Shown here: piece by piece, positions 320 to 47,178 of the stretch
Layout: every line of letters starts with the position of its first letter
How positions within the stretch are numbered: position 1 is the first letter of the stretch
The notes under the pieces: generated by a model
Told to the model about the DNA's origin: nothing
Databases searched by the model: none
Seen by the model: the letters and a program-made list of their open reading frames with translations, nothing else
Position numbers and translations under genes: made by a program
Assembly: GCA_900299185.1 (NCBI GenBank)
Contig: OMIV01000178.1
Location: 1-64,000 of the forward strand
Origin: Planctomycetaceae bacterium
GTDB lineage: Bacteria; Planctomycetota; Planctomycetia; Planctomycetales; Planctomycetaceae
Reading direction: 5' to 3'
Length of the DNA: 64,000 nt

Positions 320-3300
320 TTATTCATTCTCAAACTTCGCCATACCGACGAAGTGCCAGATGGCGTCGAATTGCTGGCGGGCGTTGCCTTCGAGGATTGT
401 CGTCACCTTCGTCTGCTTACCGTCGGCGGCGAGTTTCGGCATCTTAGTGTTGATGTCGAAACGCGGCGGGTCGAGTGTGAAGCGGCTGTAGTAATCATTA
501 CGCACTCGCTCTTTCACCAATGCGAAGTTGATGCCGGGAGCGATCTTCGTCTTGTCGTCGCCTTGAGCCGGTTGATTCCCGACCGCATGACACTGCCGAC
601 AATCGAGTGCCGTCTTTTGAACCAGCGCCGCACCGAGTTCGACTTTCTTCGGATCGGGGCTGAATGAGGCGTCCTCGCTCGGATCAATCCCGTGCTCGGC
701 AGCTAAGCCTTGAGCGAGCGTCGCGGCATATGGCTCGAACGACGGCATGCGGCCTTTCAGCCACGGACGCAGAGCACTCGTAGGATGGGCACTCTTGCCC
801 GTCTTCTGGCTCTCGATGAATCGAGCCACCCAATTCGTACGCAGCTTCTCGCCGGTCCAAGTGAGGTTCGGGAATGCATCGGGAGCGAGTCCGCTATCGC
901 TTTCATCGGCGATGATCGCGCGACGCGGACTGATGAGTCCGTCGCGATCGTGGCACGACTCGCAGCGCAAGCTCTTCACCAAGCGACGTGACTCTTCGAC
1001 AACGACAGGTCGATCGAGCGTTGAACGCTCGGCCCCAAGAAACGAGATCAACGCCGCTCGGTCCTGAGGCGAGAAGTCGAACCACGGAGTGCCGGATTGC
1101 TCGTGCCGTTGTTCCGCGATGCAGCCAGTTACCGAGCGGACATCGCCGATCGCATACATCGGAAGCGGTTGCGAGACCTCCGCCAGCGACGGCTGAGGCA
1201 ACTCATGGCAACGCACGCAATGCCGAGTGACCGGCAGTTGCTTCTGCTCCTTCGAGAGCGACTGCGGCAAGCTCTGGAGGAACCCGCTGAGCGACTTTGG
1301 TTCGTCGTCCAATGCCGGCGCCGCTTTCGACTTCAAGAACGAACTGAGGTCATGCGTCTCTTGCTGAGTCAGATGAAAGTTCGGCATCCGCGCGCCGACA
1401 TGATTCGGCGGCGCGGCGAGGAATCTCAGCAGCGAGTCGCCAACAAACTTTTGATTCACGCCAGCGAGCGAACGTCGCTCATACGCATCGGCTGCTTGCG
1501 GTGCCGTCAGTCGATGACACGCGATGCAACTGAGGTCTTCAAACAACTGCTGCCCGGCAGCGAGTCGACCTTCGGGCTTTGTGGGTGTTTCAGTCTTGGG
1601 CTTATCGGCCGCCGGGTTCAGTTCGAGAGCCGCGACGAGTGCTCGGATTTCTTGCTGCGTCTTTGCGCGATCACCGTGAAAGAGGAACGGCATGCGCGCG
1701 TGCTTCACGAAGCTCTGCGGATCCTCGAGCCACTTCAGCATCCAATTCAAATTCCGCGAACCACGCTCCAACTTCGGAGCCTTTGCGATTCCGTCACTCG
1801 CCGCCGGGCCATGACAGTTGCGACAGAGATGAGTCGCAAACAACTCGCGCCCGCGCCGCAGTTGCTCGGCCTTGATAAGCGCCGCGTCGTCGCTGTTATG
1901 AAAAAGTACACTCGCCGGAACAGGCTCCCGAGCGAACTCCGCCGACTCCCACATGAGCCGCATCTGAGCGGCACCTTGCGCGGGCGAGTCGTACTCAACG
2001 ACGAGCTTGTTGAAGCCGCCATTGAGCGAAGTGGGATAGGCATCCTGCCTGTAATTCTTCTTATCATCGACTGGCTTACCTACTTCAGGCTTCACACCGC
2101 TTGATGACGCCGAGGAATTGACAGGCTGGAAGCCTATCCCACTGAGTAGCTTATCGTTGACGAAGACCTTCGCTGAGCCCGTGCCTTCGACGCTAAAGCT
2201 CACCGCTTGCTGTAACGGGACCTTGATAAATCCTTCCCAGCGCGCGACGAACGGCGCGGGCGTGAGGAACTGACTTGCCGGTTGATTGGCTGCGACAAAC
2301 GTCGCCGCCATGCGATCAACGCGCGCGTCGATGTAGCTCCGCTCGGCAGAGCGCGGTCCGAAGCGCGCGATGAGACCCGGCTTCAGATTCGCATCCAGAG
2401 ACTCATCGGTCGTCGCGCGCCGCTTGAGCTTCGACTCATCGAACTTCTCCGCACGGACGCTGTTGAGTGTGAGATAAACCGTGCGACGGAATTGCGTAGG
2501 TTGGGATTCCATCCCGACCACTCTGGCAAGCTCCGCTTGCGAGTCCCCGCTTGAGGCCGCCTTCCCCTGCGACGCATTACCTGACGACGAGTCGCTGTTG
2601 CCCGTCGGGTCGGGACGGAGTCCCAACCTTCGGCTCAACACGCACGACACTGCCATGACGTTGACCGGCTTCACGTCTTTCAGTTCCAAGAACACCGTGC
2701 GGTCATCGAGCAGCGTTGCCGAGCGGACTCGGACTTCGTCGCGGCCTTCTTGTATTGGGTCCGATACGCGGTACTCCGGCGAGCCGTAGTTCTTCGAGTA
2801 AGAATAGTTCCATTGCTCCACGTGATAGCTGCCGGGGTTCTCGGTAGAGGTCGCATCGAGCGGTTCAGTGAAGCTCAGCGCGATGCCGTTTGAGTAAGCG
2901 GTCGCGGTCAGAGGCATCTCGACGGGCTTGCCGGTGTAGCGGACTCGCTGCAAGCAACCGTCGGTCACGGCAGAGGTCGTCCAACCTCGCAGGCCGGTGA
3001 CGTAGAGCTGCCCGTCATGCGGACTGAAGCGCCCGCGCATGGCGCCAGAGTCGAAGCGGAAGGGCATCTCGGTGAGGCCGATCGGTATGTAGTCGCTGCC
3101 CATAGTCGCCTTTCGCTCCGCGAAAGGACGCTCCTGTCCAACTGGCGTCGATTGGTTGCCGTTTTCGCCTGAGCGATCTTTCGCGGAGCGAAAGTCGACA
3201 ACCCCCAACAGCGCCGAGCACTGCCCGAACGAGAAATGCAACATGTGCCCCGATACCGGTCCCCACTTGTCGCTCGTGATCCAGCATTGGCCGCCGGATG

Positions 3301-6300
3301 AGTTATCGACTCGGCGGGGAATCCAAACCGCCGGCGGATCAAACCCGAGCGGTCGTTCGGGAGTGACTCGCGGTCCTCCGCCACCGAAGTGAGCACCGGG
3401 CTTCGCGATGAAGATCGCCGAAGCAGGAGTCCAATCGCCCTCTTGCGGAGCGGCAGAGACGACATCTCCGGGACCAAGTCCCATGCCATTTGGATTACGC
3501 AGTCCGGTCGAGATCACGTCGAACTTCGAACCATCTGCCGCGACGCGCACGACTCCGAGATTCGCATGCACGAACCAAAAGTTGCCGACCGAATCTCGTT
3601 CGAGGCACGTGATGTAGTCATGCCCGCCAGCGGAAGTCGGATAGACGTTGCTGAAGCACTCATAGTGATCGGCTTCGAGATCGCCGTTGAGATCATGCAA
3701 CCGCACGATCTGATCGCGACACAGAACGTAGAGAGCATCAGATGTCGCGAGCGAAGTATTCTTCTCGTTCCCAGACTCTGTCTGGGAACGCGTCTTCTGA
3801 GGCTCTGCCTCATGCTCGGTCTCAGTCTTCGTCGCACCGTCAGGCTTCGAAGTCGCAGAAGATGGAACACGAGGCAGAGCCTCACGAACGGCATTCCCGG
3901 GCAGAGCCCGGTAACGAGTGCGCTCGGTGTGCTCACTCGGTCGAGCAATCACCAATCCCAATGGCTGATGCAGCCCCGTCGCGTAGCGATGCCAACGCAG
4001 CTTCTTCTCACCCTCGCGACGCACGACCCATACATCGCCATGCACCGTGCAGACCGCGATGTCACCGTTGGAAAAGAAGTCATGGCCGCTCGTGAAAAGC
4101 AGGGCTTTGTACGGGTTGTCGAACGGTAGCTTGAACGTGTCGACAACATACGGAGCATCGCTCGAAGCCGTGACGAACTCGGTTTCGATCTTCTCCGTCC
4201 ACTTCGCGGGACCGGGCTTGAGCAGCGTTGCTAACTCAGGCTCACCGGTCGGCTTCGGAGCCGCAACGGCGGCGAGAGCTTGCTCCCATCCGGCTTTGTC
4301 TTTGAGCAGCCCGGTCCAATAGACAAGTCGTAGTCGCCGCACATCGCGGCCTGCGGGGATCTTGAAGCCGCCGCTGAGTCCGCCATCGCCTGAGGTCACG
4401 AACGGCTCAATGCGAGTGTCGCTGCGGAGCCCGACGAACGAACCGATTTCGCCGTCCTTCTTCAGCAGCCAAACGGGAGCGGCGTTGTTCATCTCGACGC
4501 TCGCGACTTTGTGATGTAGCAAGAGTTGCAGGTCCTGCGCGGCGGGTGCGACTTCGATCGTCCGAGTAACGACAAGCCGATCTCCAACTTGCTCGCACCA
4601 CGGAGACTCAGTAACCGAGATGCCGTCGACGTCATAGCTCAAGACGACTCGTTCTCCGTGCGTGTGTAATCCGCGATACTTCACTCTCGAGCCCGCCCAT
4701 GCCGCGAACTCGGGCGACTGAAACATGAACCCGCCATCGGGCATCGGAGCACCGATGATGCCGAACCGAGCCGGGTTGAACTTCAGAAACCCGCCGGTCC
4801 AGATGGCTCGAACTTGAGCGTGCTCGGCATCAAAGCAGACCGTCGCTTGCTGCTGATCGCCGACGCGAATCGACGTCATCTTGCGACCCGCTCCGCCCGG
4901 TAGCCCGCCGACAACCGACGAGAGCCAACGTCCGATTTGAGATTCCTTCCATCGGTTATCGACCCAATCGCCTTCCCACTGATCGAAGCCGATTTGCTCC
5001 TTGCCCCAGTGAGCCGGCGGCTTCGGTTTGCCGCCCGCTGCTTGAGTATTCGCCGCCGGCGCGGGAGCAGCGACCGGTGCTTGAGCGACCGCGAACGAGC
5101 CTGACTTCGACTCATCTTTGAGCTTCGTCTTCTCAATTATTTCATCGCAGTGCCAGAGGCCGACGGTGTTGTCATCAACGACCGGAGCCTTCTCCGGCAG
5201 GCCATCGATCGCATGCGCCCCGGTACGAATTCTTACCTCATCAATGAGCCCCGCGCAGCCGATGCCGCCTTCAGCGAGACGACCAATAGCCATCGCCCCA
5301 TTCTTCGACGCCTCGAACTCCTTCGGCAGTGCCTTTTCCACAACCTGCTTGCCATCGACGAACAGCCGAATGCGTTTGGCCTCGAGCGTCATCGCGACGT
5401 GATGCCATCTGTCGTCGGCGATGTTGACGTCCGAGCGATACTCGCCGCCGCAGCCGGGCAGATAGACGCTGAAGAACCCGCTGCCCGAGTACGAATACAT
5501 CTCCCAATGAGTCGCCGACGCTTTCGGTTCGCTCGCGATCAAGATGTTGAAGCTGTCTTTGTTGGCGAGCTTCGTCCAACACTCGACGGTGAGCGGCACT
5601 GACCGTTGAGCCGGCTTGGCGTCGATGTTGACTCCCGTCGCGCGAGCATCGAGTGCTTGCCCGAATCTTCCTTCTGCAAGCTTCAGTTCTTTGGGTGTCG
5701 CCGAAGTTACAGCCGCCGGAGCACCGGCTTTCGGAGCCGGAGCCGATGCGACGACCGGATCGTCTTCCGCTCGCAGCTTGAGCATTCGCCGATTCGCAGC
5801 CCATGCGGCCGCACGACGCAGCATCTCTCGCGGCTCGAAGGCGTCGTAAGTCTTCTCGCTATGCCCGAGCAGCGTTTGAAACACCCGGCCTTTGCCATAC
5901 GTGCCGACGAAGGCGAGCGGCTCGTCGCGGTCCGTCACTTTCGACTTCGCAGTGATGAGCGGATCGACCGCGCGGCCGTCCTGCTTGAAGTACAGCTCGT
6001 CGACGACATCAAAGCCTTTGAGCCCCGCCGTGATGGGATGTTCGAGCGACGTCACATCAACCTTGAACGGCCCGAACGCATCGTGACCGCTCTTCGCTTC
6101 GTCTTTGCCATGATGATTCCAAACTCGCAGCGCGATTTTGCGGAGTTCAGGCCAATCGGACTCAGCAGCCATCGGTAGCGAGAAGTGAAACGCACTCGAA
6201 TTGAAATGCACGAAGAGCACGCCGCCGCCGTTCTGCACGAAGTTCATGAACGCGGTCTTCGAGGCATCGCTGAGCGGCTTCGGGTCATGCCAATTGACGT

Positions 6301-7432
6301 AGTTCGGCAAGAGGATGTCATAGTTCTTACCGATGTCCTTCTTCGCGAGGTCTTCAATGTCGAGCGACACATCGACCTTGATGCGCGGATCTTTCTCCAA
6401 AGCCGCCTTCATCGCCGGAGTCGTCTTCTCCCAGTTGTGCCACTTATGCGCGTCATTGCCCGCGATGAGCAGCACGCGAATCGGCTTGTCGTCAATGACC
6501 GCTCGCTGAGTCCCCTCAACTCCAGCGAGTGCTTGCGTGATCTCCGCATGAGTGAAGTACCGAGCTTCAACGCCACCCGTCAGAACTTCAATCTTCGCCG
6601 TCCAAGCAATCGCATTGAGAATCAGCTTGCGAAACTCATCGCGCTCCCAGTTGGAATAAAAATGACCGCAAGTCGTCCCGAACCCGCGTCCGCCACTGGC
6701 TCGCTGCTTCGCCCAAGCGACGACATTGCCATCAGGCTCGCGACCATTCAGAGCGGGCACGATGAAGAGCGGCGATAGGCCCTCGATCTTCTTCGCCTTG
6801 CCACTCGCCTCTTGCCCGTCTCCCTCTGCAAAACGCAGATTGAAATAGAACTCTTCCTTCATCTTGAACGGCTTGATGCCGCGCACGACGGGATGCTCGG
6901 GCGACCCGATCTCAACATCGGCCTCTTTATGTGTGATCGCCGAGTACCACTTCTTCTTGCCGTCGGTCTCCCAATCGAAGTACGCGCCGGACCAATCGAG
7001 GATCTGCTTCGCGTACTGATCCGGGGCAAAGGTCGAGAAGTGAAAGGTCAGAAACCCGCAGCCGCGATCAATCTGCTTCTGCACGGCCTTGAGATTCTCC
7101 GCGGATCCAAAATGCGGAGCCTCTTGATAGAGATCGCCATCTCGTCCATCCGAGATGACCATGATCGAGTCCGCATCATCGAGCGTCTTCAGATCACGCG
7201 GCATCCCATCAAGGTGATACTCAACGCGGACCTGCTCGCGGACATTGGAATGATCGAGCATGACCTTCAGCAGCTTGACGGACCACGGATAGTCATGAAT
7301 CCCATTCCCCGTCGGCCCATGCGACTTCGGCCCCGCAATGAGCACGATCTTTTTGGTCGCTGGCTCAGCAGCGAAACCTTTCGCTAACAAACCGAACACA
7401 GCCAACAACACCAACAAACAACGCATCAACAT
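320..7432 (-). CDS. Giant exported ThuA-ThuA-LamG-propeller-multihaem cytochrome c fusion protein
   Basis: This exported protein of about 2370 residues combines domains usually found in separate planctomycete proteins. The start chosen is the ATG at 7432, with GGAG seven bases upstream, leading into the signal peptide MLMRCLLVLLAVFGLLAKGFAA. An ATG at 7474 is possible but lacks the signal context. In order I see two ThuA-like domains (about 28-290 and 316-560), a LamG/concanavalin-like domain (594-777), a DUF6797-like region (807-1077), a PVC-type beta-propeller region (about 1080-1480), a PA14-like segment (1700-1830) and a C-terminal multihaem region. Five CxxCH haem motifs are visible: CRNCH near 1870, CIACH near 1969, CVRCH near 2072, CESCH near 2157 and CRQCH near 2278. 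It is probably a periplasmic electron-transfer protein linked to carbohydrate breakdown; that role is inference. Four palindromic repeats are embedded in frame (see repeat features). No operon partner is obvious. Confidence 0.9.
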   Translation of the reverse strand: MLMRCLLVLLAVFGLLAKGFAAEPATKKIVLIAGPKSHGPTGNGIHDYPWSVKLLKVMLDHSNVREQVRVEYHLDGMPRDLKTLDDADSIMVISDGRDGDLYQEAPHFGSAENLKAVQKQIDRGCGFLTFHFSTFAPDQYAKQILDWSGAYFDWETDGKKKWYSAITHKEADVEIGSPEHPVVRGIKPFKMKEEFYFNLRFAEGDGQEASGKAKKIEGLSPLFIVPALNGREPDGNVVAWAKQRASGGRGFGTTCGHFYSNWERDEFRKLILNAIAWTAKIEVLTGGVEARYFTHAEITQALAGVEGTQRAVIDDKPIRVLLIAGNDAHKWHNWEKTTPAMKAALEKDPRIKVDVSLDIEDLAKKDIGKNYDILLPNYVNWHDPKPLSDASKTAFMNFVQNGGGVLFVHFNSSAFHFSLPMAAESDWPELRKIALRVWNHHGKDEAKSGHDAFGPFKVDVTSLEHPITAGLKGFDVVDELYFKQDGRAVDPLITAKSKVTDRDEPLAFVGTYGKGRVFQTLLGHSEKTYDAFEPREMLRRAAAWAANRRMLKLRAEDDPVVASAPAPKAGAPAAVTSATPKELKLAEGRFGQALDARATGVNIDAKPAQRSVPLTVECWTKLANKDSFNILIASEPKASATHWEMYSYSGSGFFSVYLPGCGGEYRSDVNIADDRWHHVAMTLEAKRIRLFVDGKQVVEKALPKEFEASKNGAMAIGRLAEGGIGCAGLIDEVRIRTGAHAIDGLPEKAPVVDDNTVGLWHCDEIIEKTKLKDESKSGSFAVAQAPVAAPAPAANTQAAGGKPKPPAHWGKEQIGFDQWEGDWVDNRWKESQIGRWLSSVVGGLPGGAGRKMTSIRVGDQQQATVCFDAEHAQVRAIWTGGFLKFNPARFGIIGAPMPDGGFMFQSPEFAAWAGSRVKYRGLHTHGERVVLSYDVDGISVTESPWCEQVGDRLVVTRTIEVAPAAQDLQLLLHHKVASVEMNNAAPVWLLKKDGEIGSFVGLRSDTRIEPFVTSGDGGLSGGFKIPAGRDVRRLRLVYWTGLLKDKAGWEQALAAVAAPKPTGEPELATLLKPGPAKWTEKIETEFVTASSDAPYVVDTFKLPFDNPYKALLFTSGHDFFSNGDIAVCTVHGDVWVVRREGEKKLRWHRYATGLHQPLGLVIARPSEHTERTRYRALPGNAVREALPRVPSSATSKPDGATKTETEHEAEPQKTRSQTESGNEKNTSLATSDALYVLCRDQIVRLHDLNGDLEADHYECFSNVYPTSAGGHDYITCLERDSVGNFWFVHANLGVVRVAADGSKFDVISTGLRNPNGMGLGPGDVVSAAPQEGDWTPASAIFIAKPGAHFGGGGPRVTPERPLGFDPPAVWIPRRVDNSSGGQCWITSDKWGPVSGHMLHFSFGQCSALLGVVDFRSAKDRSGENGNQSTPVGQERPFAERKATMGSDYIPIGLTEMPFRFDSGAMRGRFSPHDGQLYVTGLRGWTTSAVTDGCLQRVRYTGKPVEMPLTATAYSNGIALSFTEPLDATSTENPGSYHVEQWNYSYSKNYGSPEYRVSDPIQEGRDEVRVRSATLLDDRTVFLELKDVKPVNVMAVSCVLSRRLGLRPDPTGNSDSSSGNASQGKAASSGDSQAELARVVGMESQPTQFRRTVYLTLNSVRAEKFDESKLKRRATTDESLDANLKPGLIARFGPRSAERSYIDARVDRMAATFVAANQPASQFLTPAPFVARWEGFIKVPLQQAVSFSVEGTGSAKVFVNDKLLSGIGFQPVNSSASSSGVKPEVGKPVDDKKNYRQDAYPTSLNGGFNKLVVEYDSPAQGAAQMRLMWESAEFAREPVPASVLFHNSDDAALIKAEQLRRGRELFATHLCRNCHGPAASDGIAKAPKLERGSRNLNWMLKWLEDPQSFVKHARMPFLFHGDRAKTQQEIRALVAALELNPAADKPKTETPTKPEGRLAAGQQLFEDLSCIACHRLTAPQAADAYERRSLAGVNQKFVGDSLLRFLAAPPNHVGARMPNFHLTQQETHDLSSFLKSKAAPALDDEPKSLSGFLQSLPQSLSKEQKQLPVTRHCVRCHELPQPSLAEVSQPLPMYAIGDVRSVTGCIAEQRHEQSGTPWFDFSPQDRAALISFLGAERSTLDRPVVVEESRRLVKSLRCESCHDRDGLISPRRAIIADESDSGLAPDAFPNLTWTGEKLRTNWVARFIESQKTGKSAHPTSALRPWLKGRMPSFEPYAATLAQGLAAEHGIDPSEDASFSPDPKKVELGAALVQKTALDCRQCHAVGNQPAQGDDKTKIAPGINFALVKERVRNDYYSRFTLDPPRFDINTKMPKLAADGKQTKVTTILEGNARQQFDAIWHFVGMAKFENE
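2031..2142. repeat. In-frame palindromic repeat pair A inside the giant haem gene
   Basis: Two 22-nt arms at 2031-2052 and 2121-2142 are inverted copies with two mismatches, built on GTGGGATAGGC and GCCTGT. The same arms recur in intergenic DNA at 43416-43491. On the coding strand the segment translates through GIGFQPV and RQDAYPT, between PA14-like sequences around residues 1763-1801, without breaking the frame. Confidence 0.85.
2498..2629. repeat. In-frame palindromic repeat pair B inside the giant haem gene
   Basis: Arms at 2498-2519 and 2608-2629 are inverted copies with two mismatches in 22 bases (core GGTTGGGATTCCATCCCGAC). A nested hairpin, GCAAGC-TCC-GCTTGC, sits at 2526-2540. A related half copy occurs near 32770. 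The coding strand reads a Ser/Gly/Asn-rich peptide around residues 1601-1645. Confidence 0.85.
3105..3199. repeat. In-frame palindromic repeat pair C inside the giant haem gene
   Basis: Two 29-nt arms, 3105-3133 and 3171-3199, are inverted copies with three mismatches. Each contains CTTTCGCTCCGCGAAAG, itself nearly palindromic. The coding strand encodes a polar peptide around residues 1411-1443 within the propeller region. Confidence 0.85.
3764..3918. repeat. In-frame composite palindromic repeat D inside the giant haem gene
   Basis: The arms 3764-3813 and 3870-3918 are imperfect inverted copies. Both contain a hairpin of the CTCGTTCCCAGACTCTG type followed by GAGGCTCTGCCTC. The coding strand reads a highly charged, low-complexity peptide around residues 1171-1223, rich in Glu, Lys, Thr and Ser, between propeller blades. 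It looks like an insertion. Confidence 0.85.
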
Positions 7433-7499
7433 GCGGGATCTCCGAAACTCGATTGAAGCAAGGTGAATTGTCACGAGGCTCTCGGTGACTCGTCAGCGA

Positions 7500-22466: not shown

Positions 22467-22611
22467 TCGCGAATCGACGCCAGGAGATGAGTCGAACAGA
22501 AGGCAACAGAGGGAACGAAGAGGATGAACTGCGAATGCCGGACGCAATGCGGTTCCCTCGGGGCGACAGGACTATTCTCGTTCCATTCCGTTCTCGCGGC
22601 TCAAGATGAAT

Positions 22612-22640
22612 GGTCCGCGCGAATGGAATCGAGCGCGAAT
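22612..22640. repeat. CGCGAATG short repeat, copy 1
   Basis: This 29-base repeat has the form GGNCC-RCGCGAATGRA followed by six variable bases and CGCGAAT. It lies inside the first long inverted repeat. Related copies are at 22824-22852 and 34211-34239. Confidence 0.7.
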
Positions 22641-22823
22641 AGAAGAAGCCGTCATCTCTCTGTTTCTCACTCTCCGTTCCCTCTGTTTTCTCCTGTTCAA
22701 CGTCTTTGATGAAACGCCTCGAACAGAAGGCAACTGAGGGAACGGAGAAGAAGACGAAGAGAGAAAAGGCCGAGCCAACGAGGTTCATTCGAGGTGTGGC
22801 CATTCGCGCGGCTCAAATCGGTT

Positions 22824-27937: not shown

Positions 27938-27983
27938 CAGTCGCCGAGCGACTGAACTACGTAGGTGAGTCGCTCCGCGACTC
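27938..27983. repeat. Double-hairpin repeat (DHR) copy 1
   Basis: This 46-base element is CAGTCGC-CGA-GCGACTG (17 bases), a 12-base spacer containing TACGTAG, and GAGTCGC-TCC-GCGACTC (17 bases). Each 17-base unit is a 7-bp stem with a 3-base loop. It lies between a gene start (27912) and the 3' end of the next gene (28028). Confidence 0.9.
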
Positions 27984-35035: not shown

Positions 35036-35081
35036 GAGTCGCGGAGCGACGCGGCTACGTAGCTCAGTCGCTCTGCGACTG
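35036..35081. repeat. Double-hairpin repeat (DHR) copy 2
   Basis: This 46-base copy lies 20 bases after the Cys-rich gene. Its first hairpin is partly degenerate, while the TACGTAG spacer and the second hairpin CAGTCGC-TCT-GCGACTG are intact. Confidence 0.85.
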
Positions 35082-37353: not shown

Positions 37354-37399
37354 AAGTCGCGGAGTGACTCGCCTACGTAGCTCAGTCGCTCTGCGACTG
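37354..37399. repeat. Double-hairpin repeat (DHR) copy 3
   Basis: This 46-base copy between rph and folE has the TACGTAG spacer and a second hairpin identical to copy 2. The first hairpin has one changed base (GGAGTGACT). Confidence 0.85.
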
Positions 37400-39324: not shown

Positions 39325-39370
39325 CAGTCGCGGAGCGACTGAGCAACGTCGCCGAGTCGCCCCTCGACTC
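39325..39370. repeat. Double-hairpin repeat (DHR) copy 4
   Basis: This 46-base copy between convergent genes keeps the first hairpin CAGTCGC-GGA-GCGACTG, but its spacer is diverged to AACGTCG and its second hairpin has two changes. Confidence 0.8.
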
Positions 39371-43208: not shown

Positions 43209-43540
43209 AGCGCGAAGCCACGAGACTCGATGAGCATCTCACACAGAGGCGCAGGGGACGCCGAGAAGACCAAGTTGCTCAACTCTTCATTCCTGCTATC
43301 TCCGCGCCTCAACGAGAGACCTCGTTCTCTGGTTCTGACGGCAATGTGATCTTGATTGCGCCGCTCAGTGACGCTGGTCGCCATGTTCGTTGCAGGGAGT
43401 CTGTTCGCCGAGATCGTGGGATTGGCTTCCAGCCTGTCAGAATTGTTGCAACTCGGAGTGCCGAGGCTGACAGGCAAGATGCCTATCCCACTTTTCGGGC
43501 AGTGCTCTTGAGCGAGCTCTTTTGAAACTAAGGACAACTC
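43209..43540. repeat. Repeat-bearing gap before M81 gene
   Basis: It contains an imperfect AGAGGCGC-type inverted segment around 43245-43320 and a clear palindromic pair, 43416-43439 with 43468-43491. That pair's arms (GTGGGATTGGCTTCCAGCC type) match pair A inside the giant haem gene. The ribosome site AAGGA lies just before the gene at 43541. Confidence 0.75.
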
Positions 43541-47132: not shown

Positions 47133-47178
47133 CAGTCGCAGAGCGACTGAGCTACGTAGGCGAGTCGCTCCGCGACTC
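47133..47178. repeat. Double-hairpin repeat (DHR) copy 5
   Basis: This 46-base copy has both 17-base hairpins perfect (CAGTCGC-AGA-GCGACTG and GAGTCGC-TCC-GCGACTC) and spacer TACGTAG. It ends 36 bases before the ECF sigma factor start, within its likely leader. Confidence 0.9.

Follow-up and report, generated by a model that had tools for sequence, protein, structure and literature searches.

How do four palindromic repeats come to lie, in frame, within a single bacterial gene? The window analysed here, the whole stretch of 64,000 nucleotides at the start of contig OMIV01000178.1 from a Planctomycetaceae bacterium, contains a reverse-strand host gene (320-7474) whose single open frame of 2384 codons runs across all four repeats. 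The original prediction had described four inverted-arm structures inside an open frame, with the arms of the first also present in intergenic DNA. Both observations were borne out: the structures were found at 2030-2143, 2495-2632, 3105-3199 and 3764-3918, inside one open frame, and a pair of element-1 arms lies between predicted genes at 43416-43491 of the window. Judging from its sequence, the host protein is probably a large one of secreted type, with predicted parts that comprise two ThuA stretches, LamG (Laminin_G_3), DUF6797, a haem-dehydrogenase-like region, and PA14-like and cytochrome c domains. Peptides predicted from the translated frame include NSSASSSGVKPEVGKPVDDKK and TETEHEAEPQK, and an open frame of approximately 2000 to 2300 amino acids is present in the orthologues G001, G027, G002, G028, G044, G032, G034 and L252. 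The source genome is a 7.9-Mb, MAG-like planctomycete draft in 383 contigs with 3.4% contamination, and genes were called with our own codon model rather than with a standard caller.

Each of the four elements is a REP dimer, in which two inverted hairpin arms surround a spacer, and every arm itself folds into a small hairpin whose loop is TCC or TCT. Element 1 (2031-2142) has arms at 2031-2052 (GTGGGATAGGCATCCTGCCTGT) and, inverted, at 2121-2142 (GTGGGATAGGCTTCCAGCCTGT), separated by a 68-nt spacer, and encodes the peptide GIGFQPV-NSSASSSGVKPEVGKPVDDKKNY-RQDAYPT. Element 2 (2496-2631) carries an intact GTAG tag at 2496-2499; its arms lie at 2496-2519 (GTAGGTTGGGATTCCATCCCGACC) and, inverted, at 2608-2631 (GAAGGTTGGGACTCCGTCCCGACC), its peptide is LGLRPD-PTGNSDSSSGNASQGKAASSGDSQAELARV-VGMESQP, and a third small hairpin (GCAAGCTCCGCTTGC) is nested in its spacer at 2526-2540. 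In element 3 (3105-3199), encoding VDFRSAKD-RSGENGNQSTPVGQER-PFAERKAT, the arm at 3105-3126 (GTCGCCTTTCGCTCCGCGAAAG) is paired with an inverted arm at 3178-3199, and arm complementarity reaches 3133. Element 4 (3764-3918) is a composite of two nested pairs, with outer arms at 3764-3790 (CTCGTTCCCAGACTCTGTCTGGGAACG) and, inverted, at 3893-3918, and an inner REP pair of the GAGGCTCTGCCTC type at 3798-3884 (arms 3798-3812 and 3870-3884) that encodes EALP-RVPSSATSKPDGATKTETEH-EAEP. This layout matches both a 150-bp copy outside called genes (L333) and an in-gene copy (C50). Fold z scores of the four elements against shuffled sequence were -5.6, -3.7, -6.9 and -5.5, and none of 200 shuffles folded as well.

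The elements represent four different multicopy families of the source genome (A, G, B and F for elements 1 to 4, respectively). Genome-wide searches returned 47 matches to the element-1 arm at up to 2 mismatches and, at up to 1 mismatch, 25, 87 and 24 matches to the arms of elements 2, 3 and 4; the reversed-pattern control returned 0 in the source genome for each. The intergenic pair at 43416-43491 is a family A dimer in its standard 76-nt form, with a 32-nt spacer. The tag is GTAG in element 2, GTGG in family A of the source genome (often GTAG in G030) and GTCG in family B, and no GTAG-type tag was seen in family F arms. Across a 1.24-Mb genome sample we detected 75 paired hairpin elements, compared with 1 in a first-order Markov control, and these sort into several families, named A to G in this analysis. 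Twenty-seven of the 75 pairs lie inside 17 predicted genes, a frequency that does not extend to the genome at large because the sample was picked partly for A and B arms; a 0.21-Mb source-genome sample taken regardless of arms held no in-gene pairs.

Families A, B, D, F and G occur inside genes too; the pairs named by the family E rule and the family C pairs examined all lay outside predicted genes. Arms of families B and F are open in all six reading frames, A and G arms in five of six; D and E arms are open in only four and C arms in only three. Pairs within genes have standard arms, but a spacer that is unique to each site. Family F shows one layout of approximately 150 to 155 bp both inside and outside genes, and family B spacers measure 51-69 nt in genes versus 61-66 nt in intergenic copies. 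Among the in-gene family B spacers there was no homology above chance except for one borderline pair, and three intergenic family B spacers were clearly related to one another.

Other repeats were seen alongside these. Family E pairs (GTAG.T.AGTCGCTC.GCGACT) occur in the window at 27939-27982, 35037-35080, 37355-37398 and 47134-47177, with a single arm at 39326-39347. They stand back-to-back with their tags adjacent (head-to-head), a geometry unlike that of the in-gene pairs, and the two window pairs compared with gene calls both lie outside genes. A purine-rich repeat (GAACAGAAGGCAACAGAGGGAACG) is present in three alternating copies at 22494-22748 and is not a REP hairpin. A second heavily hit gene (L068, G000:C273, 2564-10453), encoding 2630 amino acids, contains four repeat pairs, which belong to three families: two of B, one of A and one of D.

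All four segments are absent from the same-genus orthologue in G001 (segments 64-75% identical), where short polar linkers alone occupy the sites, and from orthologues more distant still; beyond the two nearer MAGs described next, eleven orthologues lack them. In the alignments the segments stand out cleanly as additional sequence of the window gene. No REP pairs were found inside the distant orthologues. A Lake Pavin MAG (L252), whose orthologue is 74% identical over aligned residues, has element 2 (2496-2631) in common with the window gene; its site 1 is empty, its site 3 holds a GTAG-tagged pair of another kind, and its site 4 holds another pair. In the orthologue of a Lake Erken MAG (L253; 66% identical), a different GTAG-tagged pair occupies site 2, a pair of the L252 type plus two further hairpins occupy site 4, and a degenerate pair is present at site 1, the pairs at sites 4 and 1 having been read by eye. 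Because L252 and L253 hold other pairs at these places, the same loops have been struck repeatedly by different families. At site 3 of L253 (1973-2110) there is an inverted repeat of purine/pyrimidine character (GGTGAGGAG type) that is unlike the other REP arms. A fifth loop, near residue 1706 of the host protein, has nothing in the window gene, and each of the three relatives has an insertion there (SAAQARLVEA, SHARQSVGDATAD and NVGQAARLSAQA); in L253 (2801-2836) it contains an inverted REP pair with a 6-nt spacer.

A second host, the hydantoinase gene C343, has an inserted stretch of approximately 38 amino acids, where approximately 6-13 are present in the 12 relatives with coverage of this site. 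A second in-gene pair in C343 (L237, 5383-5501) is yet another GTAG REP; its 37-nt arms (CCGTAGGGTGGGACCAGCGCCGCGCCGGCCCACCAAT) complement each other perfectly, and its spacer (SDNLESSAENKTDE) is polar. No in-gene pairs turned up when 408 kb of G001, 200 kb of G030 and 175 kb of G027 were sampled, although G001 did yield one in-gene family G pair at L319 in a later comparison. The families are patchily distributed, family A being present in 6 of 59 related genomes and family B in 26 of 119; the scatter of family B among relatives is as expected of a mobile family. The highest count in the 119 genomes was 250 family B arms, in G071.

Comparison with L252 gave an indication of age. Third codon positions of the two genes agree at only 67% of identical residues, and element 2, present in both, is older than the split from L252. 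In L252 the spacer of element 2 has diverged, with arms at or near the family consensus, and paired T-A to C-G changes distinguish the stems of both arms between the two genes. L252 has the nested hairpin of 2526-2540 in identical form, with 30 of 30 nt matching over this part. More broadly, the loop-closing base pair is kept in 34 of 40 family A arms (19.6 expected if the two bases were independent) and in 15 of 16 family G arms (7.9 expected). Hairpin-templated correction or conversion is the likely cause of arm uniformity; selection on structure is a possible alternative.

We then turn to what the segments encode. Strongly hydrophobic residues make up 10% of the spacers in the host frame versus 30% in the other five frames (n = 24, Wilcoxon 1e-7), the 24 spacers not being fully independent because the nested C50 pair is counted beside its outer pair; the host proteins themselves are 30% strongly hydrophobic. 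For 17 of the 24 spacers, no other frame of the six is as polar as the real one. A second locus set, which overlaps the first in part, gave fractions of 0.108 versus 0.298 (n = 10, p = 0.006). In the best open frame of intergenic spacers the hydrophobic fraction is already 0.15, and given this value much of the polarity may come from a filter that lets only certain frames survive. An AlphaFold2 model of residues 1100-1860 has long stretches with pLDDT below 50 at local positions 82-142, 331-359, 521-557 and 686-711. In this model the four stretches correspond to the four inserts, which are predicted to be disordered loops with folded strands on either side.

RAYT transposases with intact HUH motifs were identified between G-like arms related to element 2 in G001 (L216), between arms of family F, the family of element 4, in G009 (L233), and between family C arms in the source genome itself (L073). 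All three match the NCBI model for REP-associated tyrosine transposases (NF047646 REP_Tyr_transpos), L233 above the cut-off and L216 and L073 below it. The GTAG-tagged arms flanking L216 differ from those of element 2 by compensated stem changes. The families of elements 2 and 4 both have a RAYT with the same or related flanking arms. No RAYT for families A and B was found in the source genome and nine relatives. Among the loci examined, from incomplete arm lists and draft genomes, no Y1_Tnp adjoined A or B arms; by position, none stood beside the B arms on the incomplete lists for G101 or G071, and in G101 the interval 3966468-3967158, a candidate site that separates two B pairs, was without a Y1_Tnp match.

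Taken together, the sequences make it very probable that the four segments are non-autonomous, REPIN-like REP dimers that inserted in frame in surface loops and are translated. RAYT transposases, which are HUH enzymes of the IS200/IS605-like type, would move the dimers through single-stranded hairpins. An insertion would survive only in a permissive loop, without a stop codon and in a frame that yields a hydrophilic linker, after which the spacer would drift under weak selection for polarity and hairpin-templated correction or conversion would keep the arms close to the family consensus. The simplest reading, and our default, is that the insertions are merely tolerated, as parasites, and do not provide a new protein function.

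The lack of relationship between spacers would also fit a history in which single REP arms landed independently on each side of a native polar linker, leaving the spacer outside the mobile unit, and short polar linkers do already exist at the four sites in G001. We consider this improbable, given that family F keeps its layout constant in and out of genes, that family B spacers are of similar length in both settings, that in the four elements the two arms face opposite ways and carry the tag on the outer side, and that most relatives of hydantoinase C343 have no linker to bracket. It is very unlikely that the hairpins serve the gene as RNA structures, in mRNA stability or in translational pausing or bypass, and are not mobile. 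The folds are very stable and the insertion common with L252 shows compensatory arm changes, both of which favour such a role, but most orthologues do without the segments, relatives have other families at the same sites, the same families recur in many unrelated genes and between genes, and the frames stay open across spacers that resemble protein-coding DNA. On the patchiness of the segments, the presence of the families in unrelated genes and the protein-coding look of the spacers, we rejected a purely RNA role.

An origin in the assembly or binning has next to no likelihood. The draft is fragmented and somewhat contaminated, as given above, but element 2 is present in the independent Lake Pavin MAG with diverged flanks, the frame is kept across all four elements, and the segments align cleanly as insertions. 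The REP-dimer reading also had to be set against coding palindromes in the strict sense of Rickettsia palindromic elements (RPEs), whole 100-150 bp elements copied between genes together with their interior, as RPE copies share theirs. The present elements are likewise in frame, polar, palindromic and 95-155 bp long, and in-frame palindromic insertions retained as peptides in many unrelated genes (the 27 pairs in 17 predicted genes) are a likeness to RPEs. However, family B interiors within genes show no similarity, only three intergenic copies having one in common, and four separate REP families, two of them linked to RAYTs, operate in parallel with only their arms common between copies. On these grounds we rejected the RPE model, which we regard as very unlikely. 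The original prediction, that mobile palindromes had entered the gene and been kept as polar peptides as in RPEs, is well supported in its first part: the segments are absent from most orthologues rather than common to all, further copies of their repeats are dispersed through the genome, and translation in the real frame gives polar spacers. Its analogy to RPEs as a family gave way to four REP-dimer families, two of them related to RAYT-flanking arms in relatives, whose copies have conserved arms and nothing else conserved.

Most known REPINs lie in intergenic DNA. The elements described here have the multicopy hairpin arms and the inverted pairing of REPs and REPINs. They resemble the REPtrons formed by REPINs and RAYTs (TnpAREP) in that inverted REP pairs are dispersed in the genome and related arms flank a RAYT in relatives (PMC3116915, PMC8266576), and they differ in that for elements 1 and 3 we found no RAYT and the arms bear altered tags (GTGG and GTCG). 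REP dimers inside genes have been reported before: Di Nocera et al. (2013, PMC3733652) described GTAG-tagged REPs, short hairpins paired in inverted polarity into dimers with spacers of 20-100 bp that may vary; some lie inside ORFs, where they encode 20-30 amino acids, and such dimers were richest in the verrucomicrobium Opitutus terrae. The same authors noted drift of the tag from GTAG to GTGG and suggested a location in flexible linkers or loops. Our elements are like theirs in their short inverted hairpin pairs, variable spacers and in-ORF copies. Unlike that set, and new here, are the four families held by a single gene, spacers that are polar in the real frame only, the same loops hit again by other families in related species, and an insertion that can be followed from one species to another and shows compensatory changes in its arms.

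A possible reading, which we put forward tentatively and rate as doubtful, is that some REP families of this planctomycete lineage are gene-tolerant: with arms open in five or six of six frames and the TAG stop lost from their tags (GTGG, GTCG), they would repeatedly seed new disordered loops at the same permissive sites of the same proteins and, through hairpin-templated correction, keep their arms near consensus even in genes. If so, REP dimers would be a continuing source of new protein linkers. The locus offers a multi-species case in which REP dimers are seen entering, persisting and changing in coding DNA, with a measurable filter at the protein level. Element 2, common to two species yet diverged, opens a route to asking how REP arms stay uniform amid changing surroundings. 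The case is relevant to two questions: whether REPs are passengers of extragenic DNA only, and how disordered loops arise in bacterial proteins.
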